Of a stretch of DNA of 64,000 nucleotides, positions 14,176-59,500 are shown one piece after another; position 1 is the stretch's first letter, and every line of letters starts with the position of its first letter. A program made the position numbers and the translations under genes. A model generated the notes under the pieces. It was not told where the DNA came from. It ran no database searches and was given only the letters and a program-made list of their open reading frames with translations. The stretch spans positions 482,739-546,738 of the forward strand of contig JAOTOM010004877.1 in the NCBI GenBank assembly GCA_034440615.1, given 5' to 3'. This DNA is from Ashinkailepas kermadecensis (lineage: Eukaryota; Arthropoda; Thecostraca; Neolepadidae).

Positions 14176-14208
14176 CTGCTCTCCACGACATGGTAGTGAA
14201 GTACGCAC

Positions 14209-15386: not shown

Positions 15387-15474
15387 ACCTTGAATGGCGT
15401 ATGGGTGTTGTATTACCCATGCAGTTGATGCGCCCTTAAACTACAACAATTAACCAACTAACCTTGAATGGCGT
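15387..15474 (+). mobile_element. Short tailed insertion K (60 bp) at the me31B exon 6 donor
   Basis: Body 15401-15460 on the plus strand (antisense to me31B), between perfect ACCTTGAATGGCGT copies (15387-15400, 15461-15474). Reverse-complemented, that duplication is the last 12 exon bases plus the donor GT. The core has arms GGGTGT/GCGCCC, which pair as RNA with G-U wobbles, and the tail is ATTAACCAACTA. Confidence 0.92.
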
Positions 15475-25925: not shown

Positions 25926-28728
25926 CTACTCTTGCGGCAGCGCGTGCTCGCCGGCGGCCAGGGAGCCGGACAGCGCGTCAGAGAGTCGCTCGAGGGTGGC
26001 GTGCAGCCGCATGGCGGGCGCGCCGGGCCGACTGCGGTGCAGCAGCTCCACAGCCGTCACGTACTCGTGCTCTGCGAACACTGCGCCGCGCTCAGTCACG
26101 CCCGCCACCAACTGGTCGGCGTCCTGCAGAAGTAGCTCGTAGTACTGGCGCGCCTGGTCCAGAGCCGTCTCGCGCGCCATCGTCAGCTGCGTCATCGCCT
26201 GCTGCAGACTCAGGATGTCGCGCACCATCTTCTTGGCGCCGTGCTCGTTGACTCGCGGGATGTGCGCTGCCGCAGATATAAGCAAGTTGGAGACGAGCGG
26301 CGCCAAGCCTTCGAAGATGTAGCGCAGCTTGCGTTTGCGTAGCGCCGACTGCAGCGTGTCGAGGATGGAGGCCAGATCGCGGTTGAGTCGCGTCACCTCC
26401 GGATCCGGCTCGGACGCGTCCAGATTGGGCGCGAACTGACCGTGCCGAGTGAGCGGCAGCAGGTGATAGAAACAGTGGACGCGCACCTCCAGGTGCAGAA
26501 CCAGCAGGCTGCTGTCTGCCAGCTCTTCCAGGTCGCGGCCCAGCTGAGTCAGCGTCTGCACGGATGACTCTGGCACGGTACCGGCCTCGCCCAGGCCGGC
26601 CGCCATGTTCTGCACGTATCCGCCCAGCCACTCTAGACTCTCGTGCAGCCACGCCAGCTGCCGCAGCAGCTGCACATCAGTCACCGTCTCGCCCGGCGTG
26701 ATGTCGCCGTCGCCCAGATTGCCAGAAAGGATCTCAGTCTCGCGCCGGTTGCGCTCCCGCACTTCCTCTGGCGACTCCTCCACCGAGAGGTCCTCTGCGC
26801 CGGCGGCGGCTGCCGCGGCCGCACCGCCCTGTTTCTGATTGAGCCAGTTGGGTAGCTCGCGCAAAAAGCGACTGATGTCGTCGTCGTGCGCCCACGAGGC
26901 GGACACCACCTGGCGGCCGTCCTCGGCCTGCGTGACACCGCGGTACTGCTGACCGCAAGCCTCCTTGTACTGCACTAGCGTGCCGCAGATGATCGACAAA
27001 AAGTGGTTGCAGTAGTCGGGCAGCGACTGCATGAGCGCGCGCAACTGAGAGACGTAGTGGCGCACCTGCACGGCTGACTGGAGCAGTGGTTTGGCAGCGC
27101 CCAGCTCCGCCAGTTCGGCCGGCTCCTGCAAAGTCTTCCAGCCGTCCATGCGAGTCTCGGCGAGCAGCGTCCCCTCTGCGCGCAGTCGTCCAAGCAGCAC
27201 ATCGGAGATGTAGTCGCTGATGAAGACGCGCAGCGGGCAGTGCTGTGAGGAGGTGGACAGCCGCTGCTCGATTTCCTCGGCAAGGCGGATCAGCGGCGGG
27301 TACAAGACGGTGATGTGGAGCGGGTCGGCGGCAGCCAGTAGCGGCTGCTCGCCGGGTGATGCGAGCGCAGTCGTGCCGTCCGGCGCCTGCTGCTGCAGAC
27401 GCGCCTTTTCCTTCAGGTAGGCGCCCATGTTCAGGCTGGTGGACGACGCGTCAAAGTTGAACAGCAGGCGGGTGCGGACGCGAGCCGGCCGCTTGCGAGC
27501 AAAATGAGTGGCCAGCTCTGCGGCCATGTCGGCGCGCGGCGTCAGAGGCGTCTCGGCGCCGCCAGACACGGCGCGCTCTACGTCCAGGTACTCGGACGAC
27601 ACCAGCTTCAACACGTCCTGGATACTCGCCCATACTTCAGTCATGCTGTACAAAGCGACCGTGTCCGAGCCACGGCCGGCGGCGGCCCGGCGGAACGCCG
27701 TCAGCAGGCGATCGTGGGTGTTGGCTACAGCGCGAAACTGGTCGGTGACCGAGTCCATCAGCTGAGACAGCAGTCCCGGCGCATCAGCCGGCTGCACCAG
27801 CGACGGCCCGATCAGTGGCGCCACCACCTGGACGGCGCGCTGCTGCCGGAGCAGCGCAGTCGTGCGGCCCACCACTGCCAGTAGCTCACCTTCCATGCTA
27901 GATAGCAGGGCGTCCACAGTGTCGGACAGCTTGCGCAGCTGCGTCACACACTCTACCAGCACGGCAGGGTGCGCCGGTCCGTCGCCACCGTCCAGCGCCT
28001 CCAGCTCTTCCTCGCCGCCGGCCGGCGCACGCAGGAGGGCACTCACGTCCACCACCGGGCGCCGCTCGCGCGCCGACGACCGTCCCGAGCTGCGCTGCTC
28101 GTCGCCGCGCTCAGAGACGGCTCGGCCAGAGCCGGCACGCTGCAGGGCAGCCAGCACGGGCGCAGTGCTGGCGCGGTACAAGTGCCGCTGGAGCTCCTCC
28201 ATCAGTCGCTCGTGCAGCGCGTCCGCCTGCGTGTCCAACTCGGCACGCACCTCCTGCAGTGCATCAACGCCGGCCAGCGGGCCATCCAGCAGCTGGCACC
28301 CAGCCGTCAGACGGCGTGTGGCTCGGTAGTACTCGCGCCGCTGCAGGTGTATGCTTACCGTGTCTGGCAGGCCACGCATCTCTTCCACTCGCTCCAGCAG
28401 CGACAGCATGTGCTTATGCTCCACACCCTCCTGCCACAACTTCTTCAGTTCGTCGCGTTTGCAATGCAGCAGCATCTTACAGTTGACCAGGTTCTCTCGG
28501 ACGGTGCGCATGCGGGCGCGCGTAGACGTGATGCGACCAGACACGTTCTCGTAGATGGCCATGGCGCGGCGTAACTCGGCCTCGTGGCCAGAAACCAGCT
28601 GCTGCAGCTGCTGCTCGCTGCGCTGGTACTTGCGCTTGAGCGCACCCAGCCGCTCGCGGAACTCGTCCGGATGCGTCAGCGAGAGGTTGTCAAGTTCGCG
28701 CAGCAGCGTCTGGCCCCGCTGGGTCGTT
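25926..28728 (-). CDS. Sec8: Exocyst complex component 4 (Sec8), large terminal exon
   Basis: Minus-strand exon of 933 residues plus one carried base, ending in a TAG stop. Sec8/EXOC4 is a subunit of the octameric exocyst, which tethers secretory vesicles to the plasma membrane (family knowledge). Family blocks seen in order: ENLVNCKMLLHCKRDELKKL (N-terminal Sec8 domain, near residue 75), the MLSLLERVEEM coiled region, EELQRHLYRAS, ISASWA-like VSASWAHDDDISRFLRELPN, ILSGNLGD, LHESLEWL, LLVLHLEVRVHCFYHLLPL, YIFEGLAPLVSNLLI, and near the end AREXALDQARQYYELL-type and LLHRSRPG. Human EXOC4 is about 974 residues, so roughly 40 N-terminal residues are missing; homology stops at a good acceptor, gtgttgcAG|AACG. 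Vertebrate EXOC4 has many introns, so one 2.8-kb uninterrupted exon is notable. No frameshift or stop is seen. The frame is open further 5' to 28961 but that part shows no Sec8 similarity. Confidence 0.93.
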
Positions 28729-31255
28729 CTGCAACACGGGAGCGGGCCAGAGTCAGCGCCGGCGGCTGTCACCCGCCCCCGTGTTGCCGCCCGCCGCGAG
28801 ACTGTCCAGGACACCGCTGCCCGCGCACAATAATTTACGCCGCAGCCAGCCTTCACCCGGTCACAGCCAGGCAACTCGCATCCAAGCTCCACAAACCAAC
28901 TCTCCACCCCCACACGAGTGTGGCAAGATTCGCTGTGTGGACTGTCCCAAGAAGTTCTCAATTACCTCCAGAAATGCTTGATGCTTTGGGTACAATATGG
29001 ACAAATCGTGTCTTCCTTGAGAATCGCTTGATGACTGATAGACAGCAGAAACAACACAAATGTTCTCAGAAGTACGTCCAATTTCGCGACACTTTCACAC
29101 AAATTATCACCCATTGCGCAACTAATGGGTGCTATACGACCTATGCAATTGATGCACCCATAAACTACAATAACTAACTAACCATTGCACAACTACTGAA
29201 TACCCAGGTGAAATGCTTCAAATGGCTTGGTGAATGGAATACATTGCAGGCAAGTGATCTGAAGAGAATACACTTTGTTGTTCTTTATTGCTCTGGATTG
29301 CAGACAATTGAAAACCTCCAGTGAAAAATATGGAGTATTAACTTAGCAGGTCAGGTGTCGGGTGGGGCCTATTTTCTTATTCCTTAAATGCAAACAGCAA
29401 GGATGAATGCCACGTACAAACTCTTTCCATGGCTTGTCTATATGCCATTCACTCCAAATTAACTACACTAAGTAACTTGGGATGGTGCCCCATGTCGGGA
29501 CAAATTCCATACAGGATTCCTGGTACGTAATTGGTAAATGTTCTCTTCCCTCCAGTGTTCAATTGCTGCAATTTCATAATGTGGTACTGCTTGTTGTGGC
29601 TTCAATCACCTGGATCAGAGCAGTCCTTCAAAACGGTGGGACAGTGTGGTGCCTGTACCAATTTCAGTTTTGGCCTTGCTGTGGATTTCCAAAGTTTGCA
29701 ATATCATGCAATGATTTGTTTTAAACTCATAACAGCAGTGCTCTGAAATACCACAATTTAGGTAGAAGCCACACTTCATAGGGTCTTGCCTCGATTTTCC
29801 GTGAACGGGGTTATGACATGAATTAACTTCAATAGCATGCAACATGACAGCACTTGCCTACCGGCACAGCAGCAGGCTTTGTCATTCCCAATGTCACGTC
29901 AGCAATGTGAGGACATGTTTTGTTACCAAGTGCCAACAGTGTTTAAGGCAGCTCAACTATGTTCCTTGGTAGTCGATTATTCTGATGCAGTGCCTTAAAA
30001 TTGATTTTTGTGGGGTGGAGGGGGATGGAGAGGGTGATGTCAAGCAAGCCAACTCATGAAAAAAAAAAAATATATGCAGATGTATATAGATAGTGCCTGC
30101 TGATGAGCAATTTTATATGGCTTATGCTCATCGCATGGTGACAGTGCTGTCTGTCTCTGCTACCTTTACCAATCAGGGAAGTGCTGCTGTCAAAAACCAT
30201 AAATGCTTTTAAATATGCAAACCTCACTCGTAATGCAGAATAAAAAAACAAGTGGCACTTCGTTTTCGAAAGAAAAACGTACAATTTGTATAGTGTTGGT
30301 CTGAAATTAAATGTCAGAGCACTGTTCTAATGTTGACATAATTTTATGACTGCTGCAAAATATACCCCACAAAAAATTCTATTGAGAATGCCACAGAAAA
30401 TATATTTCCATGACCCACCTATAACTTCTTGCACATAGTGTATATTATGCAATATGATTGTTGGGCTGATGAACATTAAAAAATATAGCCACGAAAATTT
30501 GCACCAGATATTCCATGGTCCATATGCCTTGGTGGCTTCTTGGAATTTGGATTCACTTGGTGGCTTCTTGGAATTGGAATCCACTGGCTTCTTGGAAATC
30601 AATAACTTCAATTTACCAGTTTCAATGCAACTGTTATTTTATTCATGCCATCAAAATCGTTCCCCACAAGATAAGTCATGCCAGTTTTGCTAATTTCACT
30701 TTAAATGCTCACATTTCTGCCATTCTGTAAGACATGTCTTTCAGGATAATTGAAGAAAAAAATATATTTCCCACTGATGACATCTGATTGAATTCGGGAT
30801 GTGAAGGGGAAAATTATTGGGCAATGGAATATGGATAATTTTTTTCCAACCTGGAATTTGATAATTTCAGTTTGAACTTTACAATGAATCATCAGCATTA
30901 GTCAGGGCAGTTCATTGTCAAATAGCCCCATTCAACTTCCAGATGACAAAAAGGACAATGTTCTAGATGCCAAACATCTAGCAGCATATTTTTATGAGCC
31001 ATATTGACAACACTTGTGGATTAAACGTTTTCATGATACCAGCTACAAAACAAAATGTAGCAGAATCGACATGAAACAGTTAAAAATCACCAAACCATGC
31101 AATTACAGAATTCAAAGCAGGAAGGGATGGAATGGCAATACAAGTAAAGGAAAGGTCTCATTTGTAGATGGTGCCATGGATACTTCTTTCTGAAACGTTC
31201 ATAACCTGCTGTATTTTTGGATCATAAAGACAGTCATAAAGTGCTTGGACTTATC
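28729..31255. other. Upstream of the Sec8 exon; no further exon recognised
   Basis: The missing Sec8 N-terminal exon was not found. It contains short insertion L and a small 28-bp tandem (TTGGTGGCTTCTTGGAATT, about 30528-30598, three copies). Otherwise AT-rich and unassigned. Confidence 0.5.
29111..29195 (+). mobile_element. Short tailed insertion L (57 bp) with 14-bp duplication
   Basis: Body 29125-29181 on the plus strand, between CCATTGCGCAACTA and CCATTGCACAACTA. Its hairpin arms are ATGGGTGC/GCACCCAT: a C-G pair of the family consensus has become T-A on both sides. The tail is AATAACTAACTAA. Confidence 0.9.
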
Positions 31256-31366
31256 GGTTATTGGTTTTACGACACGTCGACCGTTGAGTCATATAGCGTC
31301 GCCAATCTCTCACGCCGATTGGTCGCGGGCGAAGAGTAGCGACAGGTGAGATTCGAACCCACAACC
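31256..31366 (-). mobile_element. tRNA-headed SINE fragment (S2)
   Basis: Same tail and body as copy S1, on the minus strand. The tRNA-like head is cut off just upstream of the B box (plus strand reads GGTGAGATTCGAACCCACA). I could not find a convincing target-site duplication, so the ends are approximate. Confidence 0.8.
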
Positions 31367-31541
31367 TAGTAAGAGCCACAAGGGCCCATCCAGTTAAATG
31401 TGTAAATGGAAGATACCATAAGCCTGGTAAAAAGACCCACCCCAACCATCACCACTTCCTAAAGAAACCATCCAGAGACATTCCACATACCTATCAGTGC
31501 CTATCTACCCTAGCTATCTAGCCCTATTCCCTTGATCCCTC

Positions 31542-33809: not shown

Positions 33810-33892
33810 TGTACATTTCAATCGGTTGGTTATTAGGGTTTTAGGGCGCAATAACTGCATTGGTTATACCGTGCCCATGTACATTTAAATCA
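33810..33892 (-). mobile_element. Short tailed insertion D (55 bp) with 14-bp duplication
   Basis: Body 33824-33878 between TGTACATTTCAATC and TGTACATTTAAATC. The plus strand begins GGTTGGTTATTAGGGTTTTA. It lies inside the minus-strand CR1-like LINE fragment. Confidence 0.85.
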
Positions 33893-33950: not shown

Positions 33951-34091
33951 TCATATTATAAGTTGTGGGTTCGAGTCTCACCTGTCGCTACTCTTCGCCC
34001 GCGACCAATCGGCGTGAGAGATTGGCGACGCTACATGACTCAACGGTCGACGTGTCGTAGAAACAATAACCAACCAATCATATTATAAGTT
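33951..34091 (+). mobile_element. 5'-truncated tRNA-headed SINE (S3) with 14-bp duplication
   Basis: Body 33965-34077 on the plus strand, starting at the T arm (GTGGGTTCGAGTCTCACC) and ending AATAACCAACCAA. It is flanked by perfect copies of TCATATTATAAGTT (33951-33964 and 34078-34091). It sits inside the minus-strand CR1-like LINE fragment, so it is younger than that LINE. Confidence 0.9.
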
Positions 34092-34682: not shown

Positions 34683-34743
34683 CCCATGTTGCTGTGGTTT
34701 AGGGGCGGATCGACTGCACAGGTCATATAGCCCCATGTTGCTG
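34683..34743 (-). mobile_element. Short insertion E (37 bp) with 12-bp duplication
   Basis: Body 34695-34731 between perfect CCCATGTTGCTG copies, inside the CR1-like reverse transcriptase fragment. The core GGATCGACTGCACAGGTCAT is present. The tail is reduced to AAACCA on the element sense strand. Confidence 0.85.
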
Positions 34744-34780: not shown

Positions 34781-37700
34781 AATTAATCACAACCATTTGC
34801 CAAATGGGCAAATATCACACCATGCTCAATTTGTTAAAACAAGCATTCCTACATTTTCAAGTCATTATTTACCTGGATAAACAAAGTCACCCTCTTACCA
34901 GCACACAAGGTGGATTCCAAACATATTGCTGACAGGGTCTAGCACCACCAAGGGACAGTTAAGATCATGACAGAAGAATATCCATATGATGGCCCAAATA
35001 CTGCTGAGTAGCAAGACTGACAGCCAATGCATGCATGTCTTCATGCCATTCACCTAATCAGGATGACCTGAGCATGGTGGTTGACTAGCACACCATACTG
35101 GGTGTAATTCTGCACATCACCATACCGAGTGACAATGGCTTCCAGCATGGCACCTGCTGCACCAGGTCATCAGCATTTTCCATGCCACACCAGCTTGGCA
35201 ATCACGATTTCTCTACACTGCACCATGTCATGGTACACTTTTGAGATCTCAAAATTATTGTAAAAAGCATGCTACTAAACATATCTTGATGTCTTCATCA
35301 AGAGCATTGTACACAAACACCTTCTGGAACTCCTCAATCAACCACAGGGCACCATCACACAGAATCACAAAAGGTAGAACAAATTGCACTTTGATGGAAA
35401 TGTGGCATATGATGTTTCAAGATACTTGAGTAATGAGTATACCAGGTGAATCAGCATGGATGAGCATGATGATATTTCCAAGTGTGGCTTTTTGAAACTA
35501 CTAATAGTATGCCAGTGACATCAGCAAATAATTACAGGAAATACTCACGAAAAGCCACTTGCATTACCATGTTATAAAAATATGCAATGATTACATGATT
35601 GTCTAGTGTGAAAACCTGATTAGGTAACAGATCACCACATATCATACACATCCTGCTGTCAAGGTGCACTACATTGGTGCAAAATCACATGTTCACACAA
35701 AATCAGCAACACCAATCAGCATCCCATTTGTGATTTGTGCACCAAATAGCTCCAGTGAAGTGTTATACTCTGCATAATTGCTTGCATACCAACCATGGAT
35801 GTACTTAAAATGTGATGCCCTCTACTTGGGTTGGGCAGCTGCAAGAAGTGGCACATCCAAATTCACAAACTTAGGTGTCAAGGGAGGGATGCAAAGTTCC
35901 AATGTCATGCCATGCAAACACCAGGGAAACAGGCCCCAACAAATAATTTTGCCTGGGGTTGTGGGATTTTGCCTTTGCTTTGTTTGGTTGTGGGACCACC
36001 TCCAAATCCAACCAGACTTCCCCCCCACCACCCAGAGCAATGGGGAAAGGTCACCAACTAGGGGCCATAGCCATGACTATGGGTATGGACATGCCCCACA
36101 AGCTAGTATGTTAGATGCTCAGAGGACCAGCACAACTTCAATATATGTAATGTAATGTATTTCGGATCCTCCCAAGCAGGGTTTTTCAGTTTCCATTACA
36201 GAAGTGCACTAATGCACAGCACAAACCATCATCACGAGCATACACGATAACGAGTGGCATCACAGTGCTGACGTAAGCGATGTTCCGGAGGCCGGAAATT
36301 AGAGCCCGGACATGTGCAGCATGGCATATACAGCATATACATGCCTACCACCAGGCAGCTTCTTGGGGGTTTAGGTGTGCATCAACTGCAGAGGTTATGC
36401 AGCTACCAGACAGCTTCCAAAAGGGTTTCTATTGCTAGAGAAGCAAATATGTGAAAACCTTCAAATAATGTGCCTATGTTTCCTACATTCCAAATTAAAC
36501 ATGCACTTACTGTCTCAGTGAGAAACTGCATGAAAGTCATGCACAGTCTTACTCCTACAAAGACGAATACTGGCATTAAAACATTGGTCATTGTGACCAT
36601 GATTGATGCAAATAACATTTATTTCTGCACCAAGTTACTTTCATAAAAACTGTCTACATATATCAAGTATGATGTTCCTTCTCCAGTTGTAATTGTTTCA
36701 TATACTCATATCTCCAGAACGTGCTGGTGCATATCTCATTCCTGGCACCTTTCCTTTTGTCATATGTTCCAGCTTAAACTACATGGCAAGGACAGCCCAG
36801 TTGGCAAGTAAGGCAGGCAACTACCGCACATTTAACAGCTTGGATGGGCATGTCCTTTTCTTATTTGAAATTAACAGCTAAAGGTCCACACAAAACTTGA
36901 ACATGAATGCATTAATAATTATTTCCTCAGCAGAATTGGATTACAGTGAATAGGCATGCATCTCAAAATAATTAAACCAGACTTGCAATAAAATACCTTC
37001 CACAGGTTGATATCTTATGGCAAACATGTAAGTAAGGGTATTAGATAAACAGAGCAGTGTGACACCAAATATTAGTCTGGATTGCTCAGAATGGTTGACA
37101 TCCAATATGTAACCAATGTTCTCAGGAATGCAAAGTTGAATGCAATAGCTAGCCATATCAACCTTAAATGCCAGTGCAGTAATCTGACCCAACATAAGCC
37201 CTAATTATTTGACAACACAACACCTGATGTTTGATTGCATAGAGCCAAGACATGCTGAGCAATGCAACAACTGAATATCCAGCATTGGACTGCACCAAAT
37301 AATTGCATTGCAATATGTCAATGCAATGCAAAGAAAACTATTTTGATTAACATTCTAACACCTTCATGCACAGTAAATAAAGACTGCCAGGTATAAATTT
37401 GAACTCTTAGCCTAATGCCATCCACAGTATTATAAATTCATTTCAGGACACATTTCCACGTCAGCCATTTTGAATTATTCTTATTGCCATTTTATGGTCA
37501 TGAATGAAAAGCATAGTAAAAAAATATCTTGAATTATGCAACTAATTAATAACTGGTAGCCTTTTGTAAATAGTAAAGCAGAATGGCTTTATACATTTTG
37601 TTTAATCAGCAGTGGCACCAAATTGTTGGCATTTATTCATTTTCAAAGTGGTAGGTGTTGATAGGAAAGCAGGGTTGGAAAAAAAAGTTTGTGGTATGCC

Positions 37701-37939: not shown

Positions 37940-39792
37940 CATGTTTGACCTGAACCTACAAAGGAAAATTAAATATTAGAACTTGTGCTTACTAATGAGG
38001 AAAATGTTGTACAAAATGTGAACATAGGAGACCTTTTGTAATAGTGATCACAACTTATATGCTTCTCATTTTATGTTGGAAGTGTAGGAACCAATAAAAC
38101 ATTGATTCCAAACTTTGCTAAAGGGAAATACAATGAGTTCAGGAACTTCCTGAATGCAATTCTTTGGGAAGAATTATTGAAGGGCTTAGATGCTTATGAA
38201 ATGTGGAGAATGCTAAAAGGTAAACTATTTCAAGGCCAGGATAGGTTCATTCCCAATAGGCAAATTAGACTAACCAGGGTTGAACACCATTCATGGCTGA
38301 CCAGGGAAGTAAAGCATTTACTGGAGTCAAAGAAACAGGCATTCAAGAAACTAAAAGATGCTAACTCTGAGGTAAACCTTGAATCATATATAATAGCTAG
38401 AAATAAAGTTAGGTATGTTAGGGCATCTAAAAGACTGACTAATCAAATTAGCTCAAGAATGTTCAGCAGGTAATGCTAAGATTCTTTAGCTTCCACAAAT
38501 TTAAGGCTAAAAAGTGTTGTGTAGGGCCACTGGAGGTAGATGGGAAAATAGTGGTTGATGGTGATATTGTGGAATCCCTAGTCAAGCTATTCTCACTAGT
38601 CTTTACTAAGGAGAACTCTGGTACAATAGAAACAACTGAAGGTTATGTCATGACAAGTGATAGGCTGGAACCTTGGGTTCTTTTAAAACACATTCAACCG
38701 CTAGGTTATATAGCGTCGCTAGGCTAGTGATAGGCTGGAGGATCTTACAATAACTACAGAAGCTGTAGAAAAGCAGTTGCAGAATATAAAACCTAATAAA
38801 GCTTCTGGACCAGATGATATATATGCTAGGGTAGTGTGCTAAAGCTTTAGCCATTCACCTAGGTATAATTTTCACATGGTCTGTGGAATATTCTGAAGTA
38901 CCTGAGGAGTGGAGAAATGCTAACGTAGTACCAATTTTCAAAAAGGGAAGTATGAAGTGTGTAGGAAACTACAGGCTAGTCGGTCTGACCTCAATAGTTT
39001 GCAAGGTACTAGAAAATCTGGCTAAACCATGTTCATATTCATCTTGATAGGCACAACCTTTTACGGGAACACAGATTTCGATCTTGAAGGTCTTGTTTAA
39101 CTAACCTATTGGAGTTCATGGAGTATGTTACTAAAGAAGTAGACAATCAAAGCAGGATGGATGTCATGTACTTGGACTCTAGCAAAGCTTTTGATAAAGT
39201 TCCACATGGGAGGCTAATTCATCAACTACAGCAACAGAGTTTGTTGGAAAAGTTCTAGGTTGGATTGAAGCATGGTTGAGGGGAAGGAAACAAAGGGTAG
39301 TGTTAAATGGATGAAAATCTGATTGGAAGGATGTTCTGAGTGGAGTACCACAGGGCTCTGTTCTAGGGCCACTTTTCTTTATCAACTTTGTGAATAACAT
39401 TGAGGTAGGGCTGAGGAATAGTGTTGAAATTTGCTTATGATATGAAGCTGGTAGGAGTGGCAAATAGTAGTGATCAATCTAGTAATATTCAACTAGACTT
39501 GGAGGACCTAAAAAGTGGGCTGATCAACAGCAGATGTCTTTCAACTGTGATAAGATTGGCTATGGTAGCACAATGGGCATGATTGGAGGAGTTTGTAATT
39601 GTTGAGGAGTGTGTTATGCAATATCAGGTGAATAGTGCTCGATAGGCTGGGATATATAGCTCCTTAAGAACTTGAGATAAATAATTGATTGAGGTGTGAC
39701 TATGTACTTTTCTAGTATCTTTTCAAGACAGGCTTAACCCAGATGGGCCCCTATGGCTCTTATTAAGCCGTAACACTATGACTTTATGACTT
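37940..39792 (+). mobile_element. CR1-like LINE fragment, plus strand
   Basis: 5'-truncated, same family as 33490-34780 but opposite orientation. In order: endonuclease tail (LVLTNEENVVQNV, near 37985), a linker with RLTRVEHHSWLTREVKHLLE (38265-38330), and RT blocks EEWRNANVVPIFKKGSMK (38905-38955), FDKVPHGRLI (39190), GWIEAWLRGRKQRVVLNG (39265), GVPQGSVLGPLFFINFV (39340). A 3' end follows near 39790. Multiple stops and frameshifts; it carries short insertion G. Confidence 0.87.
38656..38739 (-). mobile_element. Short insertion G (56 bp) with 14-bp duplication
   Basis: Body 38670-38725 between perfect AGTGATAGGCTGGA copies, inside the plus-strand CR1-like LINE. The sequence (CATTCAACCG, GGTTATATAGCGTCGC) is closest to the tail half of the tRNA-headed SINE and so links the two groups. 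Confidence 0.88.
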
Positions 39793-40519: not shown

Positions 40520-40588
40520 CCAATTGCAGTGGTTAGTTATTTGGGCTTCGACCAGAATTGATCATTCGTGCCCACCAATTGCAGTGGT
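40520..40588 (-). mobile_element. Short tailed insertion H (41-42 bp) with 13-14-bp duplication
   Basis: Body about 40534-40574 between CCAATTGCAGTGGT copies. The plus strand starts TTAGTTATTTGGGCTTCGAC and ends CGTGCCCA. Confidence 0.85.
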
Positions 40589-42014: not shown

Positions 42015-42072
42015 GAGGAACTCTGGGGCTTTAGGGCGCATCGACTACATCGGTCATGTGAGGAACTCTGGG
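42015..42072 (-). mobile_element. Short insertion I (32 bp) with 13-bp duplication
   Basis: Body 42028-42059 between perfect GAGGAACTCTGGG copies. It contains the core GGGCGCATCGACTACATCGG but not the AACYAAC tail. Confidence 0.85.
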
Positions 42073-42602: not shown

Positions 42603-42690
42603 AATGTGTAGCCTGTAGTTAGTTATTAGGGTTTTTGGGCGCATCAACTGCATTGGTTATACAGCGCCCATAACGAATGTGTAGCCTGTA
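42603..42690 (-). mobile_element. Short tailed insertion J (58 bp) with 15-bp duplication
   Basis: Body 42618-42675 between perfect AATGTGTAGCCTGTA copies. The plus strand starts GTTAGTTATTAGGG, then GGGCGCATCAACTGCATTGG and CAGCGCCCATAACG. The 6-bp hairpin arms are complete. This is the best reference copy. Confidence 0.95.
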
Positions 42691-43084
42691 AAAATAATGC
42701 ACCGAGAAATACGAATTTCACCAGACCCGCTGCCTGCCACTGTCAATTCGTGAAGGACACATGTGGAACAGTTGATTCAATTGGGTTGAAAGCTCGAAAG
42801 CCTCGCCTCAGTGGCGGATCCAGGATTTGACCACGGTGGAGGCATGCATAATTTTGGTGCCCCATGTACTTTAGTGGCCCCACCATGGATTTTGTGTTCA
42901 ACGAGGAAAGGATGCGCACCAAAATGTTAGCATCGAAGCATTGGCCTTCTCCGATCAGGGTGCTCGAGGTGGGAGCCTAGACAGACGGCAGCACGGGTGG
43001 ACAAATACATTGCACACGATTCCGCACCTCATGGCGAGTGAAAATACTGTTGTGAAATGTGAAGTGTGAAATGCGAGTGAAAAT

Positions 43085-45800
43085 AACTGAAAATACCGTT
43101 GATGCCCGCAAAAGTCGCACCGGGGTCCCTGTATTTTACGCTGGGAGTCTCAAAAGGTCCGGCAGGCGCCACCGAAAATAGCGCTGAAAACTCCAAAAGC
43201 CTGGCCGGGGCTCCTGAACATCACGCTGGGGTCCTGAAAATCGCGCTAGGGGCTGGACAGGCCGCAACAGGGCCCCAAAACTCATCGAGGCCAAACAAAA
43301 TGAAGCCAAGGCACGAAAAAGCAATCCGTACATGGAAAATCATTCTGGGCCCACAATAATCGCGTCAAAAGCTCCCAAAGCGACTTGGGCCCCGAAAACG
43401 TGTCGAGGCCGCTAAAATTCGCCCAAGGGATCCCAATAAATGGCGTCATTGCCAAAAAATCGCACTAGGACCCAAAAAGTTGCGTCGCAGCTCCCGAATA
43501 TCCGTGGGACCCAAAAGGCAGCGCCGTAGCCCCAAAGGTCACAGCTGGTCATCAAAAATCAATTATTATCTGGAATGTCAATCTTCGGCTTCGGAAATCG
43601 CGTCAAACACTACCAAAGAAACCGGTCGGGCCCCGAAAAAGGAACGTGCCTGGTCACTGAAAAACCTCTGACCTGGAGCCCGAGGAATCTTACCAGGACC
43701 CAAAAATACCGCACAGGAGGATTTGAAAGGTAGAACTGCGTCCAAAAGTCACAGACTTGATCGAATCGACTAGAGCACTGGACAATTAATAACAGTTCCA
43801 GAGATAAAACTATCCGAAGGGACTTCCTATTCGGGAGGATGCCCTTAGCTGAAAAAAAAACAACAGCCGCAGTGGCGTACCAGAGGGGAAAATTTCCTCT
43901 TACCGGAAGGGGTTGGCTGCCAAGAATCGTGTCGTTGTTATCAAAAATCGCGCTTGAGACCAAAACTTCGCATCGCCTCCCCCTCCCCGGAATTTGTGTA
44001 GGGGTTCAAATAAATACAGCAGGACCCAGACAACTCACCGAAGCCAGAATATTTGCACAGTGGCGTACCGATGTGGGGACATGAAGGGGAATTGCCCTCC
44101 CTCTCCCAGAGAGGTTGTGGGGCCCCAAGAACTGCCGCGGGTTTCGGAAGAAAATGGGCCAGACTCACTAAAAATCCCTCCTAGGTTCCAGAAATCGCAC
44201 AGGGGCCCATAAAATCAAATTTGGGGTCCCGAAAAGTCGCGCAAGGGCACCTAAAAATGACGCTGGGGCCTTCAAAATCACACCAAGGCCCCTGAAAATC
44301 GCGTTGTTGCCCCCAAAAATTGTTCAGGGCCCCCAAGGATGACACCGAGGCTCTAAAAAGTGGGGACCCCTGAAAATACCGCCGAGGTCCACAAAAAAAT
44401 CGCGCCGGGGCCCCCAGAAAGACGCGCCGTGCCCCCGAAAATTACGTTGGGGTCTCAAATGGTCGGGACGGGGCCCCTGGAAATAACGGAAAAGTATCGC
44501 CGGGGGGAGAAAAAGTCGCTCGGACCCAAAAAGAGGACCGGGCCCCTGATAATCACTGGGGCCCAAAAGGTCAGGCCGGGACCCTGAAAATACTGCTGGG
44601 GACCCACAAAAAATGTACCGTGGACCAAAAAATCTCGCCGGGGATCCTACAAATTATATTGGCAGCTCCAAAAGCCGCGTAGCGGCCATGAAAATGACTC
44701 AGGTGTCTCAAAAATCGCACCAGGGCCCCTGAAAATCACGTTCAGGGCACAGCGAATCGTTCCGGGCCCATGAAAATGATGCAGGGGCTCCAAAAAGTGT
44801 GACTGGGGCGCTTGAAAATATCGCTGTGACCCGAAAAAAATCGCACCGCGGACCACTAAATGACGCTGGGCCTCCAAAACGTCTGGTCGGAACCCCTGGA
44901 AATCACGCTGGGGCCCCAAAAATATCGCTTGGGCCCCTCAAAATGACGTTGGGGCCAAAAGAGGCGGACCGGACCCTGAAAATCACGCTGGGGCCCAAAA
45001 GATCGGGACCGGCCAATGCAAATCGCGCTGAGCCCCCACAAAGTCGGACCGGGCCTTTGAAAATCACGCTGGTGTCCAAAACGTCGTACCGGGGTTCAAG
45101 AAAATCATGATGGGGGGCCTGAGAGGTCGGGACAGGGCCCCTGAGAATCACGCTGTGCCTGGAGTACCAAAAAATTTCGCCCGGGTCCCTGAAAATCACG
45201 CTAGGGACACGACAGGTCGCACCGGAGCCCCCAAAGTGTCATTCAGACCACCCAAGAAATGAAGCCTGGGCAACGAAAAAGCAGTCCGGATATGAACAAT
45301 CACTCTGGGGTCCCAATAATCGTTCGAAAACCCCTCAAAACGTGTTGGGCCCCCAAAACGTATCGTGGCCGGAAACTACCACTATGGATCCCAATAAGTG
45401 ACCACGGGGTTAAATGACCACGGGCACTTAGTGACCACGGGCACTTAGACCACAAAACATCACACAACTGTCCTTGAAAATATCTCCAGTGGGGGGGGGG
45501 CAGAAAGTTTCCCCGAAGCCTCACAAGTCTCAGCTGGCTTCCCAAAAATCAATCCCTACCCGAAATGTCACTATGCACCACGCGCGGGAGTTTGCAAACA
45601 AAAATAACTAACGCCAAAAATCACAATGGTGCTCAATCGAATCGACCCGAACACCTAAAGATTCAGAACAGGTCCCGGAAGAAAATCCTCTGAAAGGCCC
45701 TAATCTTTCATGCTATCTTTCATTCCAATCTTGATGCTATCGGTTGAAACAAAAAAACTTGAGCAACCTCGGTGGCGTGCCCGAGGAAGATGCCCGGCTC
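43085..45800 (+). repeat. GGGGCCCC/AAAA-type repeat, copy 2
   Basis: The same alternating ~21-bp units as copy 1 (e.g. GGGGCCCCTGAAAATC, GGCCCAAAAAGTCGC). The spacer block GGCGTACC...GAGAGG...CCCAAGAA appears at 43871 and 44058, and the ATCACTCTGGGGTCCCAATA block at 43335 and 45295. The 3' non-repetitive part of the element is missing. Confidence 0.75.
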
Positions 45801-46059: not shown

Positions 46060-48590
46060 AAACTGACCCAGGCCGGCGTGCGCCGTTTTATTTTATTTTT
46101 GATTACTAGTTATCTCGGTGTATGGCCTCGCCCACCTATTCGACTGGCTCTCTTGCTGACTTAGTTATTACCAACTGTCGTGACATTGTGAAGCACTGCC
46201 GTACAACATTTTGTAACTTTAGTCCGCATATATTTGTTCGTGTTTCTGTGATACCTATATGCTTAGATCTAGACCGAGCGGCGCCACTGTTCGCCCCAGA
46301 TGCTTTCGCCGTACAGACCCGAATGTTTTGCTTCATTATCTTCTTTTTTGGCTGACGGGAGTACTGTTTTAAATTCTCCCTCCGTCACGCTCAAGTGGAA
46401 CTGTTTTCTGGCTATCTTTTTACCAATCATTGACATTCACGCTCCCATCAGGACTGTTAAAATTAGGAACCCTAGCGCCCCGGTTGTATCGGATCGAACG
46501 AAAGCTTTTATGTGTCGCCGCCGTAGTGCGCTGGCTGTCTATGCACACCAGTCTACGGAGTACAGGGACGCCAACCGAGCTGTACGATCGGCGATTAGGC
46601 GTGATAGCCGCGACGATGTTGAGTGGCGCATCCGTGAGGATGGGCGGAGGTCAAGGTGGCGCCATATCAGGTCATTCGTCGGCGGCAAGCAGGGGATTCG
46701 TAAGCTGCCGGACGCGACAGCTCATGACCTCAACCGATTTTTTGTCCGCGGGGGCCCGTGTGTGGCTGACGAGGTTAGGAGTATGGGAGCGACGCCGAGT
46801 ATTTCCTGCCGTTTGACGCGTGTCGGTGCCTATGCGTTTACCCCGGCGCCGTTGTCGCCATCTGAGCTGCGATTGGTTGGTTGGCTATTGGTTTTACGAC
46901 ACGTCGACCGTTGAGTCATATAGTTGGTTGGTTATTGGTTTTACGACACGTCGACCGTTGAGTCATATAGCGTCGCCAATCTGTCACGCCGATTGGTCGC
47001 GGGCGAAGAGTAGCGACAGGTGAGATTCGAACCCACAATCTTTCGATTGTGAGACATCTTACCCCTAGACCGCTAGGGGTAAGATCTTACCCATAGACCA
47101 CTCGTGCCCCATCTGAGCTGCGAGCCGTCGTCTTTGGGATGAACGGCTCGTCGGTCTGCGGCGTGGACGGCATCAACATCCATATGTTCAGGGTGTGCTT
47201 CGACTAGATAGGTGCGGTGCTCCTGCATTTGGTCAATTCCAGCATTACTCAATCCGATGTTCCTGATTCTTGGAAGCACTCTCTCATCCCATCTTCAAAT
47301 CCGGCGATTCCTCTAGCCCTTCCAATTTCCGTCCTATCTCCATCGTCCCAGTCATTGCAAAAATTGTAGAGCGTGCCGTCCATCAGCAGCTCTACAATTA
47401 TCCGTCCGAAAACCACCTAAACTTGAGGTGGTTTTCAATTGATTTTCAAAAAGAAAACCACCTCAATTTTGATTTGAGCAAGTGTTTTGATGTGCTGGTC
47501 CACTCAAAACTCCTGTCAAAATCAATTCAACAGCATCGATACATCCTGGTTTTCTGCATATCTTCAGAACCATACCCAGTGTCGGCCTCACTGACAGTCT
47601 GAGTGTCGTCCATAAATCTGCCCCTTTGCCCAACAGCATCGGCGTTTTTCAAGGATCATCTCTCGGACCTCTCCTCTACCGAGTCTATGCCAGCGACCTG
47701 AACCTGTTTGCCTAAGGCGCAGTGGTTATACAATACGCCGACGACACCCACATTTTGGTTAGTGATAAGAAATCAAATTCAAAACGTCGTCGCTCACATC
47801 GAAACAGTCTTGACCTCTCTCGACATTTGGTTTCGAGCAAATGGACTGAAAATTAACGTTGCCAAGACACAGCTGATGCTTTTTGGCAGCCCACAAAATC
47901 TGCGTGCCTTACCGTGAATCACTGAAATTTCGCGATCACGATCTACCCACCATTTCGGAATGCAAAAATATTTGACATATTTTCGATCGCTCGCCCAGCT
48001 GGGACTCGCACGTCTCAGAAGTGACTCGGCGTTGTTTTGAAGTTCTGGGTGGTTCTGTTTTGAAGTTCTGGGTGGTCTGTCATCTCCGCGCTGGTCAATG
48101 CCCGGGTCTTCTCGAAGATCCGCCATTGTATTTCTGTGTATGGTAACAACCAAAAAGAACCTGTCTCGCATTAAAAAAATATGAACTACTCGGCAAAAGA
48201 TTTTCGGCCACACAAAAAATTGACCATGTTTAGGATCTGCTGAGGAGACTGGGCTGGCTTAGTGCGGAGAACTTAGTCAGATACCATACCCTGTGCCTCA
48301 CGCACAAGGTGCGCCGTCATGGTGAGCCAGTGTCATTGGCTCATGACCTCACCACCTTGGCGAAGGTTCGTGACCGAACCATCCGTCAGGACCATCACTT
48401 GTGTCCCCTGGTCACGCACTGAGATGGGGAAGAGTCTTTAGCTCCAGAGCACCACTTATGTTCAACTCGTTGCCACCAGAGCTGATGCGGCTTCCCGTAC
48501 AGAGCTTCGGTCGCCACCTACGGCGGCACCTGTCCAGCGTGCCGCCCGTGCCAGACTGATTTGCTGCTGGCCCCGCGGTATTTTATTTAT
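46060..48590 (+). mobile_element. Jockey/CR1-superfamily LINE, 5'-truncated and broken
   Basis: Plus-strand remnant. An endonuclease tail (YSTGSLADLVITN, 46135-46175) is followed by a linker with WRHIRSFVGGKQGI (46655). RT blocks are PISIVPVIAKIVERAVHQQL (47330-47395), DLSKCFDVLVHSKLL (47475-47515), and a broken IGVFQGSSLGPLLYRVYA (47640-47695); the YADDTHIL motif lies near 47735-47760. The C-terminal part has RANGLKINVAKTQLMLFG (47835-47890), RLGWLSAENLVRYHTLCLTH (48245-48305) and FNSLPPELMRLP (48460-48495). It is split by SINE S4 and scrambled by a small inverted duplication at 47408-47463. Clade within the superfamily is uncertain. Confidence 0.83.
46858..47123 (-). mobile_element. Rearranged tRNA-headed SINE (S4) inside a LINE, 15-bp duplication
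   Basis: Body 46873-47108 on the minus strand, flanked by perfect CCATCTGAGCTGCGA copies (46858-46872, 47109-47123). The 3' tail module is present twice in tandem (46873-46922 and 46923-46975). The tRNA-like 5' end is partly duplicated as an inverted repeat around 47060-47095 (TTACCCCTAGACCGCTAGGG GTAA). Removing the insertion rejoins the host LINE reading frame, which confirms its boundaries. Confidence 0.92.
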
Positions 48591-53313: not shown

Positions 53314-53819
53314 CTATCGGGACAGTCACAATGCGTTTTGAAAAACTGCAGAAATGAAGTTCGATATCTTATCTTTCGAAGCAAAAAATAAAAGAGATAG
53401 GGGTTTGCCCCTACAGATCCACATGCTCGTTCAAAATTAGGCATGCACGGTTGTTTTTGCGCTAGTTGATCATGGCCTGCTTTAATATTTGTTTAGAACG
53501 GTATATTACTGAAATGCAAACCTTTTGACGTTCGTGGCACGTGATGGGATGAGAGTGTTAGTCATCTGATCTTGAATATTGTGTTGCGCAAGTGTTCTAC
53601 CCAAGGGCGTCGCCACCGGGGGGCAGGGGGGCAATCGCCCCCCCCCCCCTGCCGTGAAACTGGGGGGGGGGCCGCCCCCCTGAAATTCGAGGAAGCCCCT
53701 ATCCGCAAATGCACAGCAAAAAATGTGAGCAAGGAGGCCGACGGGACAGAAGATCATGCTGTCAATGAGGCCTCAAGACTGACGAGGCCCCCAGGAAATA
53801 TAATCAGGTCTCTATAAGA
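53314..53819. other. GC-tract-rich spacer, no gene recognised
   Basis: Contains dense poly-G and poly-C runs at 53618-53690 (a sequence prone to assembly error) next to the start of the GAGGCCCCC array. Confidence 0.5.
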
Positions 53820-56500
53820 GACGTAGAACAGAGATTGGGAGGAGGCCCCCAGGACGATAAGGAGGCCCCATGACGAAAATGAGGCCCCTATGACGAAAAG
53901 GAGGCCCACATGACGAAAAGAAGGCCCCAAAACGTAGAACAGAGATTGGGAGGAGGCCCCCAGGACGAAAAAGGGGCCCCAAGGACGAAAAGGAGGCACC
54001 AGGACGAAAAGGAGGCCCCAGGACGAAAGGAGTGCACCCAAGGACAAAAAGGAGGCCCCCAAGATGTAGAACAGAGATTGGGAGGTGGCCCCCATGATGA
54101 AAAGGAAGCCCCGAGGACGAAAAGGAGGCCCCCAGGACGAAAAGGAGGCCCTAAGACGTAGAACAGAGATTGGGAGGTGGGCCCCAGGACGAAAAGGAGG
54201 CCCCTTGGACGAAAAGGAGGCCCCCAGGACGAAAAGGATGCCCCAGGACGCAAGGGAGGCCCTACTACGTAGAACAGAGATTGGGAGGAGGCCCCCAGGA
54301 CTAAAAGGAGGCTCCCAGGACGAAATGGAGGCCCCCAGAACGAAAGGGATGCACCCAAGGACAAAAAGGAAGCCCCCAAGACGTAGAACAGATATTGGGA
54401 TGAGGTCCCCAAGACGAAAAGGAGGCCCCCAGGACGAAAAGGAGGCCCCTAAGACATAGAACAGAGATTGGGAGGTGGCCCCCATGACGAAAAGGATGCC
54501 CCCAAGACGAAAAGGAGGTCCCCAGGACGAAAAGGAGGCCCCCAGGACAAAAAGGAGGCCCCCAGGACAAAAAGGAGGCCCTAAGACGTAGAACAGAGAT
54601 TGGGATGAGGTCCCCAGAATGAAAAGGAGGCCCCTAAGACGTAGAACAGACATTGGGAGGTGGCCCCCATGACGAAAAGGAGGCCCTCAAGACGAAAAGG
54701 AGGTCCCCAGGACGAAAAGGAGGCCCCCAGGACAAAAAGGAGGCCCCCAGGACGAAAAGGAGGCCCTAAGACGTAGAACAGAGATTGGGAGGTGCGCCCC
54801 AGGACAAAAAGGAGGCCCCCAGGACGAAAAGGAGGCCCCCAGGACGAAAGGAGGCCCAGGACGAAAAGGATGCCCCCAGGACGCAAAGGAAGCACCCAAG
54901 ACGTAGAACAGAGATTGGGACGAGGCCCACAGGACTAAAAGGAGGCCCCAGGACGAAAAGCAGGCCCCCAGAACGAAAAGGATGCACCTAAGGACGAAAA
55001 GGAGGCCCCTAAGACGTAGAACAGAGATTGGGAGGTAGCCCCCAGAGTGAAAAGGAGGCCCCAGGACGAAAAGGAGGCCCCCAGTACGAAAAGGAGGCCC
55101 TCAGGACGGAAAGGATGCCACCGATACGGGCAAGAAGCCACCCAGGTTAGACGAAAAGGCTTCCGATGGGTGGCAGGATAGTCTTAATTTGGAAAACGAG
55201 GCCCCCAAGACGGAAGAGGATGCCCCTGCAATACAAAATTAAGACATGATAGGGGAGATTTATCCGGAAGTAATAGGGGCCCCAAGACGGTTAAGAAGGT
55301 CTCCGCAGGAATGAGAGAAGGCCACCGAGACCAGTCAGATGAGGCCCATATTTTGGAAGGGGAGGACCCTAGAAGAGAAGATCTAGGACTAGGACGCAAA
55401 AGCACCCTGCTAAGAGGATAATGAAGTTGAAAACACAGATAAGGAGGCCCCCATGACGTGAGAGGAGGCCCCTAATTAAAAAAAAATTGGTCACCTAGGA
55501 GAGGGTAGGAGTCCCCAGAAATCAAGAGAGTGTCAAAAATGGCACGGAGGCAACCAGGACTGCAAAAGAGGCCCCAACACCGGAAAGGAGGCCCCAGAAT
55601 ATGAGAGGAGGCCCTAAGACGGAAAAAGAAGCCAGTGGATATGAGATGAGGTTTCGGAGACGCGAAAGCAGGCCCCAAACAGGTGAGGTTCCACCGAGAT
55701 AGAAAAGGACGATCCAGAGACGTGGCAGGAGGCACCTAATTGGGAAGAGAACGACACAAGATTGGAAATGAGACCCTATGATGAACGAGGAGGCTCCTAA
55801 AATAGGAGAGAAAGGCCATTGGATAAGAGAGATGGTTCCCAGGCGGAAAAGAAGGCTCGAAGACGGCTAAGAAGGTCCCCAGGAAATAACAAGGCCACTA
55901 AGATAGGAATGGTTGCCAGTAATTTGGCAGAGGAGGCGCCTGGGAGATAAGAGACCACCCCTAAGATGGGTAAAGATCGAATCCACACGCAGAGCAGGAG
56001 GCCCCCCAAGACGTGAGAGGAGGCCCCTAATTTGAAAAAGAAGGCCTCTAGAAGAGAAATGAGGCACCTGCCGGACTCGAGAGGAGTCCCTCAAGAAGGA
56101 GTAGGTCTCCAGGACCAAATGAGACCCCGAAGACCGGAAAGAGTTCCCAGGAAATGAGAGGAGGCCCTTAAGATGGGAGTGGTAGCAGGTATGGAAGAGG
56201 TGGGTTTCAAAAATTGAAGATCCCTCAAAACGGATAAGGCTTTGCCATGATGAAGGAGGAGGCCCACGAGGCGTGGCAGGAGGCCCCTAATTTGGCAGAG
56301 AATGCCCCTCGAAGATGAGAGGAAGCCCCATGCCTTGTTAAAGGGTCCCCAGAATGCAAGAGGAAGTCCTCCAAGACGGGAGAGGAGGACCATTGAATAT
56401 GGAGGAGGGTAGGATACACAAGGAGAAGTCGAAAACCAGTAAATAGGCTCTAGGAAATGAGGCGAGACCCTTAAGACGCGACAGGAGGTCTATAATTTGC
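53820..56500. repeat. 20-bp GAGGCCCCCAGGACGAAAAG minisatellite with higher-order units
   Basis: A core of ~20-bp GAGGCCCCCAGGACGAAAAG units, interrupted about twelve times by a GACGTAGAACAGAGATTGGG block. The block occurs near 53820, 53933, 54065, 54156, 54268, 54382, 54453, 54588, 54637, 54768, 54899 and 55010, at spacings close to multiples of 20 bp. After about 55150 the array decays into diverged GAGGCCCC units up to 56500. Both strands have long open frames (up to ~300 codons) that I attribute to the repeat. Confidence 0.9.
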
Positions 56501-56519
56501 AAGAAGAAACCATTAAGAA

Positions 56520-59500
56520 ATGGTAGGAGTCGTGTCGGGGTACTGTAAAATCACGATATGGGCCCCAAGAGATCCGGCCGGGGCCCCCGAAAATTATGCT
56601 GAGCCTGGGGTACCAAAAAGTCACGCCCGGACCACGAAAATCGTGCCAGGGACACGACAGGTCGCACCGTGCCCCAACAGTCTGATTGGAACCAAAACAA
56701 ATGAAGCCGGAGCAACGAAAAACAATCCGGACATGGATAATCACTTTGGGGGCCCAACAATGACGCCAAAAGCCCCCAAAGCGCATTGGACCCCCCAAAA
56801 GTGTCGAGGCCGCTATAGCTCGCGCTAGGGATCCAAGAAAATGACGTCGGGGCCCAAAAGATCACATTGGACTCAAAAAAGTCGCGTCGCAGCCCTTGAA
56901 AATCACACTGGAGGCCCAGAAGGTCGCGCCGGGGCCCCAAAAGTTGCAGCTGCCCCAAAAATCAACCCTTAACCGGAATGTCACTCTGGGACAAAAAAAA
57001 ACTCCCTCAGTGGCCGCAGTGCTATATGAAAGGGGCAAGTTCCCCCTCCATCCTGAGAGGGATAAGCTCCCAAGAATCGTGCCGGGGCCTCAAAAATCGC
57101 GCTGGGACCACCAAAATTCGCGTCGGTCCACCAGAATTCGCGTATGGGTCTCCAAATAAATACGGCGAGCCCCGGAAAACTCGCTCCGAGGCCCGAAAAA
57201 TTGCAACAGGAACCGCCAAAATCGCGTTGGGGCCACAACTAAATACAATGCGTCCCACAAACTCGAACCAGGCACCTCAAATATCGCGCTCGGGACCCAC
57301 AATTCCCATTGGTAGTCCCGTCGAGGCTCTCAAAAATTGGCGTCTAGGGCCACACGTAAGCACAGTGTGACCACAAACACCGGATCGTATCCGAAAAAAA
57401 TCAAGCTGGAGCCCTCCAAAATAAGTAGGGATTCCAACAACTAAATGCCCAGGTAAAAAAAAATGGCTCTTGAGCACCGAACATATTATCAGATGCCTTC
57501 ACAAATTGCGTACGGCATCGAAAAATAAACCGGATCTCGAACAATCGAGATGGGATACAAAAACATGGCGCCAAGGGCTCGAGAAATCAGGCCGGGATTC
57601 GGACTTAAAAAAAAATCAGAAAAGATGCACAAAAATCGTATTGAGCCCAGAAAACTGGGGTTGGGTCTCCGGAACCACGCGCCTGGGCGCGATAAGTCGC
57701 TCTGGGACCTAGAAACATCGTACCGAAGCCACAAAATTGTACTAATCGTACCGAAGCCCACAAGTGTGCGTCAGAAGCCCAAAATAAACACATCGGGACC
57801 CTAAGAGCACAACGGGGGCCGAAAATACAACTGGCCCTCCAAAGCGTACATAGTCTCACAAAAAGCGACAGGGCCTTAACGCACGTTGCAGCCATAAATA
57901 TGCATACCGGGAGGTCTAAAAAATATACCGGAAGCTCTCAAGGCACACCGGGGTCATGGTAACGCACAAGAGCCTGATAAGTGGCTGAGGCCGCAAGAGG
58001 CAACATGGTTCCAAAACAAACAAAAAGACCGGGCGCTAAATATACACATCGGGATCTTCGAAAACGCCCTGACACGTCAAAAAATCCTCGGTGCACAAAA
58101 ATGCAACAAACCCTAAAACGAGCAGGGGGTTCGAAAATGTTTCAGGCCCGTAACAAAAATGGATTAGAGCCATAATACACAATCATAGAGCAAGAAAGAC
58201 GCAATGGGTCCAAAAAAGAATGCTGAGGCAGGGCCTCGGTTCGGTAGCCAATCTGGGAGGATAGCAGCAAAGATATGAAGTGCATCAAAGCTCAGCGGAA
58301 ACCGCATTTCATAACTACCAGAAAATGTGAGAAGTAGGAAATTAATGATCGATATTAATCAACCGACTTTTCGCAGCGAACGCCCATACGAAGCATTCCA
58401 TGACGTCAAATATGGCGCAAGTGTATCATGTGGCAGCAATTAGCAAAACGCAGAAGGCCTCGCAGAGGCCGTAGCATCGCACGAAGTGTGGCGAATGCAC
58501 CGAATACGAAAGATGGGTGTGCACGTGCACTGACGTTGCCGTCGTGGCGACCGGGTGCTATGAACCGGAATGCCTGAAATTGTGAAATTTTGTATTTTAA
58601 AGTGGTGGGTAATACATTTTAAATTGAAGTTGTGGGCCTAATACATCTTCGAAACCCTGCTCGTTTTAGGGCTTTGTTGCTTTTTTGTGCACCGAGTATG
58701 TTTTACGTGCCAGGGCGTTTTCGAAGATCCCGATGTGTTTATTTAGCTCCCGGTTGTTTTGTACGTTTTGGAACCATGTTGTCTTTTGTGGCCCCAGCCT
58801 CTTTTTCAGGCCCTTGTGCGTTCTCATGGCCCCTGTGCGCCTTCCGAGCTTGCAGTGTATTTTTTTTAGAGCTCCCGGCATGTTTATTTAGGACTGCAAC
58901 GCATGTTTTAAGGCCCTATCGCTTTTTGGGAGACTCGGTGCGCTTTGGAAGGTTATTTGTAATTTCCGGCACCGTTGTACTCTTAGGGTCCGGCTGTGTA
59001 TATTTGGGGCTTCTGATGCACAGTTGTGGGGCCCCAGTACGATTTTGGGGCTTCGGTACGATTTTTATCGGTCCCAGCGCGACTTATCGCGCCCAGGCGC
59101 GTGGTTCCGGAGACCCAACGCCAGCTTTCTGTGTTCAACGCGATTTTTGTGGATCTTTTCGGTTTTTTTTAAAAGTCCGAATCCCGGCCTGATTTCTCGA
59201 GGTTCTCGCGCCATGTTTTTGCATACCACCTCGATTTTTCGAGATCCGGTATGCTTTTCGGTGCCATACGCAATTTTTTAAGGCATCTGGAAAAAAAATG
59301 TTCGGTGCTCCAGAGCCATTTTCCTGACCCGGACATTTATTATTGGAATCTGTCCTTTTTTGGAGGGCTCCAGCTTGATTTTTTGGGGATACCGATCCGG
59401 TTTTGTGGTATAGGTGTAATTGCAGCAGTGTGAGGTAACTTATCAAGGTATTAAAAGAAAACCTTAGAACTAGGTGGTAGAGTTAGGGTTGAAATCCGAC

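Follow-up and report, generated by a model that had tools for sequence, protein, structure and literature searches.

The window is a stretch of 64,000 nucleotides from the barnacle Ashinkailepas kermadecensis (C4380:482739-546738 in a searched genome of 908 Mb and 4689 contigs). It contains an uninterrupted Sec8 frame at 25926-28961 on the minus strand, with 80% identity to Sec8 of Pollicipes pollicipes. Long degenerate tandem arrays of a unit of about 21 bp (GGGGCCCC..AAAATCGC) occupy 2000-4300, 43000-45400 and 56500-57400; further arrays lie around 12650-14250, with a unit of 24 bp, and around 53800-56500, with a unit of about 20 bp. A tRNA-Val-like SINE is also present, in copies whose ends are approximate. 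The copy at 618-790 (minus) carries a 3′ hairpin and tail of the kind found in the short inserts described below, and at 46879-47060 (minus) lies a copy whose 3′ end is then partially repeated, over 48 nt. Two others are 5′-truncated (31252-31381, minus; 33963-34083, plus). The tRNA-like SINE is the window's only match at the Rfam gathering level, and no tRNA or Rfam match was found in the inserts.

Short insertions between target duplications

The original prediction placed a very short related insert between direct repeats at each of twelve sites. Direct reading found such an insert, of 28-60 nt, at all 12 of them, between repeats of 11-15 bp and not 9-15 bp as had been proposed. When a profile of the 12 was run against the window with nhmmer, a thirteenth copy, absent from the earlier list, was recovered at 8569-8618 (insert 8568-8617, site 8556-8629, minus), between perfect 12-bp repeats. 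The repeat pairs are perfect for nine of the 13 inserts and contain one mismatch in the other four (4 of 171 positions differ).

The inserts differ chiefly in where their 5′ end falls on the hairpin: seven start at its foot, one starts 6 nt upstream of the stem, four start inside the hairpin and one, at 38656, is atypical. For instance, the insert at 2368-2419 (site 2356-2431, minus; 12-bp repeats, one mismatch) begins at hairpin base G1, and that at 4831-4888 (site 4818-4901, minus; 13-bp repeats) begins AT|GGGCGC. The two plus-strand inserts, at 15401-15460 (site 15387-15474; 14-bp repeats) and 29125-29181 (site 29111-29195; 14-bp repeats, one mismatch), begin ATGGG. A TGGG start is seen at 33824-33877 (site 33810-33891, minus; 14-bp repeats, one mismatch) and at 40534-40574 (site 40520-40588, minus; 14-bp repeats), the latter with an apparent internal deletion in the 3′ arm. 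The insert at 42618-42675 (site 42603-42690, minus; 15-bp repeats) has an extra 5′ CGTT. The 5′ end lies within the hairpin at 34695-34731 (site 34683-34743, minus; 12-bp repeats), 36363-36404 (site 36350-36417, minus; 13-bp repeats, one mismatch) and 42028-42059 (site 42015-42072, minus; 13-bp repeats), and within the hairpin's 3′ arm in the 28-nt insert at 21343-21370 (site 21332-21381, minus; 11-bp repeats). The atypical hairpin, at 38670-38725 (site 38656-38739, minus; 14-bp repeats), is SINE-like. Eleven of the 13 inserts are on the minus strand (two-sided p 0.02).

Chance repeats are unlikely to account for this pattern. A nearby direct repeat with a best score of at least 9 accompanies 12 of the 13 inserts, against 6.75% of 400 random places outside the tandem arrays. 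A scan of the window for exact direct repeats (at least 11 nt, 30-110 nt apart, tandem arrays excluded) returned 23 pairs, nine of them from the insert family, and 20 Markov controls gave a mean of 1.2. Moreover, two inserts have empty paralogous sites within the window. The flanks of the 34683 insert, once joined, align across the junction to 39190-39440 on the minus strand (92%), and those of the 4818 insert to 58368-58582 (83%); each paralogue has a single copy of the target and no insert. These controls and the empty sites together indicate true insertions, and the 12 sites are genuine insertions with target duplications of 11-15 bp. One related family with a shared hairpin and tail and with real target duplications had been proposed, and it is borne out by repeats around 13 of 13 inserts and by the two empty paralogues. 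Since the inserts end at their target duplications, they are not fragments of an element whose missing parts lie alongside.

The hairpin-tail module and its parent LINEs

The commonest form of the insert, written tail last, is ATGGGCGC-(4 nt)-TGACC...GTCG-(2 nt)-GCGCCC-TAAA...AATAACTAAC. This 3′-terminal module of about 55 nt consists of a two-part hairpin and an AACTAAC-type tail, a conserved 3′ stem-loop and short tail like those of the stringent-type LINE 3′ signal. In a 16-row alignment of inserts and SINEs, of which one row (i40534) is misaligned, 87.3% of the cells are paired, compared to 29-47% when the partner is slid. The percentage paired and the covariation score were seldom matched by shuffles (2 and 14 of 500, respectively). 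Two of the five covariation measures, pairs changed on both sides and further pair types, did not rise above shuffles (432 and 487 of 500). Most of 55 typed hairpins, with rows from the perfect-arm and GTTAT lists described below, fold to the common two-part shape.

The same module closes longer elements elsewhere in the genome. At L010, such a hairpin follows a reading frame in which RNase-H-like and zinc-finger-like stretches were recognised by eye, and the parent LINE layout is an RNase H protein, a short 3′ UTR, and then the hairpin and tail. At another locus, L043, four LINE-type 3′ ends follow one another, and each has its own hairpin. When three pieces of it were compared with Pfam, two scored above the cut-off for RNase H and the third fell short of it. 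For one LINE piece of this locus, 120 of 751 relatives were listed, many with reverse transcriptase and RNase H; these 120 include two named Amphibalanus proteins and one spider protein. Insert 42618 has a whole hairpin identical to the LINE 3′ end at L043:5528, and its extra CGTT matches the 3′ UTR of that LINE. Insert 42028 has one difference from the LINE 3′ end at L043:3424, and its 26 hairpin letters are identical to a hairpin at C197:2449 that bears GTTAT, the usual LINE letters, in front. Several other inserts near-match GTTAT-bearing hairpins by eye, and most of the remaining hairpin types are linked to LINEs by eye or by GTTAT only. Judged by their letters, the inserts correspond to the 3′ termini, hairpin plus tail, of several LINE families of the RNase-H type, longer copies of which lie elsewhere in the genome. 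An independent SINE-like family does not seem to be what these matches describe; LINE-type retroposition, as originally proposed, is supported by the target duplications together with the LINE 3′ match. The simplest reading of the variety among these young inserts is that it reflects a variety of parent LINEs.

The arrangement of the LINE 3′ ends deserves a separate remark. Twelve of the 13 contigs with at least two GTTAT-bearing 3′ ends among the 100 matches listed have all of them on one strand; in this list C520 has eight of eight and C265 and C494 six of six each, and the tendency was noted for C326 among other contigs. Eight of nine contigs are one-stranded for the 3′ ends found with TTTAAAN{4,10}GTTATGGGYGC, and SINE copies keep to one strand per contig in nine of 14, again among the matches listed. 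In L043 each LINE tail abuts the body of the next LINE, and no duplication was found there. We take the one-strand 3′ ends and L043 to resemble one-way, HeT-A-like arrays.

5′ ends and copy numbers

One exact LINE hairpin occurs in 106 copies in the genome, and the 5′ ends of 50 were determined: the leading 30 copies of the list (L013-L042) and all but one of the following 21 (L049-L068), the exception being a copy near a contig start. The search pattern requires the whole hairpin, so that ends inside it are not counted. In 30 of the 50 copies, the 5′ end falls at the hairpin foot (GTT|ATGGGCGC), give or take a base or two; 26 have ATG and four only TG before GGCGCC, and in several of these the A or more could be target sequence. 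LINE sequence upstream of the hairpin is present in the other 20. It amounts to at least 219 nt in 15 of them (L017 among these is a diverged relative, and for seven the length is a lower bound) and to less in five: 23 nt in L055, where it is joined to a SINE body, 65, 114, and 177 nt in two copies that share a flank and are probably one event. For this sample, the density of 5′ ends at the foot is some 266 times that found along the 213 nt that come next. A script found an exact repeat of at least 10 nt around 26 of the 30 foot-type copies. About 20 of these repeats are clean, and six are in simple repeats or far downstream (L024, L033, L036, L039, L042 and L051). With the same script none was found around the foot-type copies L015, L026, L029 and L063, or around any of the 20 extended copies.

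The length distributions of 5′-truncated LINE copies, such as those of human L1, are usually broad. Such copies and the stubs, as the short inserts may be called, are both non-autonomous 3′ ends between target duplications. Unlike in human L1 truncation, however, the 30 foot-type copies of this one hairpin all have their stop in a span of a base or two, about 55 nt from the end, and the usual broad spread was not found for it. The foot is not the sole 5′ end: four of the 13 inserts in the window end inside the hairpin, as do at least two of four found elsewhere. The earlier claim that lengths vary at both ends is only partly right, as in most sampled copies of the exact hairpin the 5′ end is fixed at the foot.

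A different picture is obtained for the SINE, which ends in the layout common to the inserts but with other stem letters. The nhmmer profile of the 12 inserts also matches SINE 3′ ends, at three loci above threshold and at a fourth (34027-34075) below it (E 0.052). The genome has 9,024 matches to a 29-mer taken from the SINE hairpin and tail. In a sample of 40 of these, half of them the top 20 of the list and half chosen from other listed rows, none is cut at the foot and all run on into the SINE body. Four of the second 20 sites were flagged by the strict pattern and proved on reading to be one-base variants. The difference in foot cuts between the LINE and SINE samples is pronounced (Fisher p 8e-11), and the predicted stabilities of LINE-type and SINE hairpins overlap. 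Thus, the hairpin alone seems not to stop synthesis, unless the SINE uses the enzyme of another LINE. With its own hairpin sequence, the SINE may indeed depend on a LINE whose enzyme makes no stop at the foot. The only partial SINE 3′ end in the window lies within the compound insertion at 46879-47060, whose structure resembles what is expected from template jumping and suggests it.

The family is abundant. Perfect-arm hairpins (GGGCGCN{16,23}GCGCCC) were found at 16,469 genome sites, against 355 for the reversed control; 10,329 have AT in front (control 18) and 3,310 have GTTAT (control 0), the last count missing LINE copies with other upstream letters, such as L053 and L066. A longer LINE pattern, TTTAAAN{4,10}GTTATGGGYGC, has 202 sites (control 1). 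The narrower GGGCGCN{4,20}GCGCCC gave 3,929 (control 638) and excludes most of the family, in which the gap is mostly 19-23. Eight of 50 listed perfect-arm sites are also among the listed GTTAT sites, which leaves 42 without GTTAT. Among 20 more sites, hand-picked from the first rows, three are extended and 17 lack GTTAT, and an exact repeat of at least 10 nt surrounds 11 of these 17. Because the hand-picked set omitted several extended sites, eight of 50 is the fairer figure. Two groups of three in that set are copies of one insertion within a larger repeat (e.g., L071/L077/L079), and some of the genome counts are likewise single insertions copied in this way. Two hairpin types also occur about 1025 bp apart on the small contigs C13, C61, C73, C81, C93, C141 and C153, among the sites listed, and these pairs have apparently been carried along inside a larger repeat.

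Five 10-kb stretches elsewhere in the genome contain four clear inserts by nhmmer, three of them with duplications by eye, and a covariance model added one weak match there (E 0.022). Four in 50 kb and 13 in the 64-kb window agree with the proposal of unusually short inserts at high density. The two figures extrapolate to roughly 70,000-180,000 copies in the genome, an estimate only, as the window was chosen by the reader who made the prediction. With roughly one stub every 5-12 kb of the stretches examined, the stubs form a large repeat class that may be unlabelled. According to the Pollicipes genome paper, barnacles lack a comprehensive repeat library (PMC8917513). Scans of IMG/VR with hairpin and tail patterns returned seven and one contigs, respectively, none of which bears the element on reading; two further patterns, including the SINE hairpin, gave no match there, nor did one scan of GTDB genome contigs.

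Possible routes to a hairpin-only insertion

The inserts are most likely 3′ stubs of LINEs placed by target-primed reverse transcription. From what is established for LINEs, the LINE protein would be expected to recognise the 3′ hairpin and to start target-primed reverse transcription at the tail. Insertion of the LINE 3′ module by target priming, preferably from a 5′-trimmed LINE RNA template, is the best explanation as a whole, and we regard it as probable. By likeness to ZfL2 LINEs, the LINE protein would bind the hairpin and prime at the target from the tail. The 5′ part of the LINE RNA would be removed, for example by a 5′-3′ exonuclease or an endonuclease stopping at the protein-bound hairpin, and the remaining stub RNA would still hold what the LINE protein needs and could serve as template. 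That the template is LINE RNA without its 5′ part is the mechanism we prefer, although on the sequence evidence at hand it falls a little short of an even chance. It is favoured because capped mRNA could decay 5′ to 3′ as far as the bound hairpin, a route that Pol III SINE RNA would not take.

An alternative is that LINE RNA alone makes the reverse transcriptase stop at the foot: once the hairpin is copied, the protein would lose its grip and either let go or escape into long synthesis. The 5′ ends of the sampled hairpin form two peaks, 30 of the 50 lying at the foot and 15 at least 219 nt away, with five in between, as would follow from such a choice. Copies that end inside the hairpin are in keeping with it, as is the SINE that carries an additional partial 3′ end, a structure suggesting that a jump can follow when synthesis halts in the hairpin. 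However, the SINE has the same layout and overlapping predicted stability and is never foot-cut among 40 copies. This weakens a stop by the hairpin alone, and a factor specific to LINE RNA must be added. A LINE-specific stop of the enzyme is a tentative reading, nearly as likely as trimmed RNA, and under either the cause of the 5′ end appears to be specific to LINE RNA.

Other origins are much less probable. Ordinary random truncation of LINEs by a poor enzyme has in its favour that 5′-truncated LINE copies are common in animals and that some inserts end inside the hairpin, but as the whole account it is at odds with the crowding of 5′ ends at the foot and with most longer copies running far; we consider it unlikely. 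A free-standing SINE some 55 nt long, transcribed from a unit of its own, could explain a fixed 5′ end and high copy number. It was put aside as very unlikely, given that those inserts that were compared base by base match LINE 3′ ends, that the inserts have no tRNA or Rfam match, and that they come in many hairpin variants, not from one master. A MITE-like DNA transposon would likewise be short, flanked by direct repeats and partly palindromic. The duplication, however, varies in length, the tail is on one side only and the truncation on the other, and the letters are those of LINE 3′ ends; this leaves it next to no credibility, and it too was put aside.

Related systems share single features with the stubs. 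tRNA-derived SINEs with LINE tails, one of which is present here, have a hairpin layout and tail like those of the inserts; unlike them, the inserts lack a tRNA-like head or body and, having no tRNA or Rfam match, show no sign of an internal Pol III promoter or of a head derived from a small RNA. UnaL2, ZfL2-1 and ZfL2-2 are stringent-type LINEs whose 3′ stem-loop is reported to be bound by the LINE protein, and its deletion to abolish retrotransposition (PMC4176376). A stem-loop in the 3′ tail is common to these and the barnacle LINEs, but they are of another type, as the barnacle LINEs have RNase H, and copies of stem-loop and tail only, as found here, were not met in the part of that source available (PMC4176376). 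Insertions from engineered R2 templates are 5′-truncated, as are the stubs, yet R2 is a site-specific element, the templates were designed, and a hairpin-only class was not met in the part of that source available (PMC11331408). A search of titles and abstract openings, chiefly of open papers and therefore a weak one, found no report of hairpin-only LINE insertions. LINEs, their truncation and the 3′ stem-loop are known; we are aware of no description of hairpin-only LINE copies as a discrete class, or of the way in which the SINE differs from them.

Copies of the deeply sampled hairpin are mostly either stubs of about 55 nt or long, an indication that LINE integration passes through a sharp decision, and the often near-constant letter of the cut suggests that stubs and long copies are separated at some specific step. 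As a foot cut is frequent among LINE copies and absent from the 40 SINE copies sampled, the long-standing question of what causes 5′ truncation becomes testable. It is possible, rather than probable, that the protein-protected hairpin and tail left after decay of LINE RNA is itself the working template, and that an RNA of about 55 nt has thereby been mobilised in some 10^5 insertions by extrapolation. If so, RNA decay would be recorded directly in the genome by remnants of about 55 nt, and the mobilised RNA would be, to our knowledge, about the smallest retroposed unit.

Two copies of the sampled hairpin lie against or within SINE sequence. In L055, a SINE body is joined to the LINE 3′ UTR and hairpin in what amounts to a tail swap, and in L060 a stub with a target duplication lies inside the tRNA-like part of a SINE.
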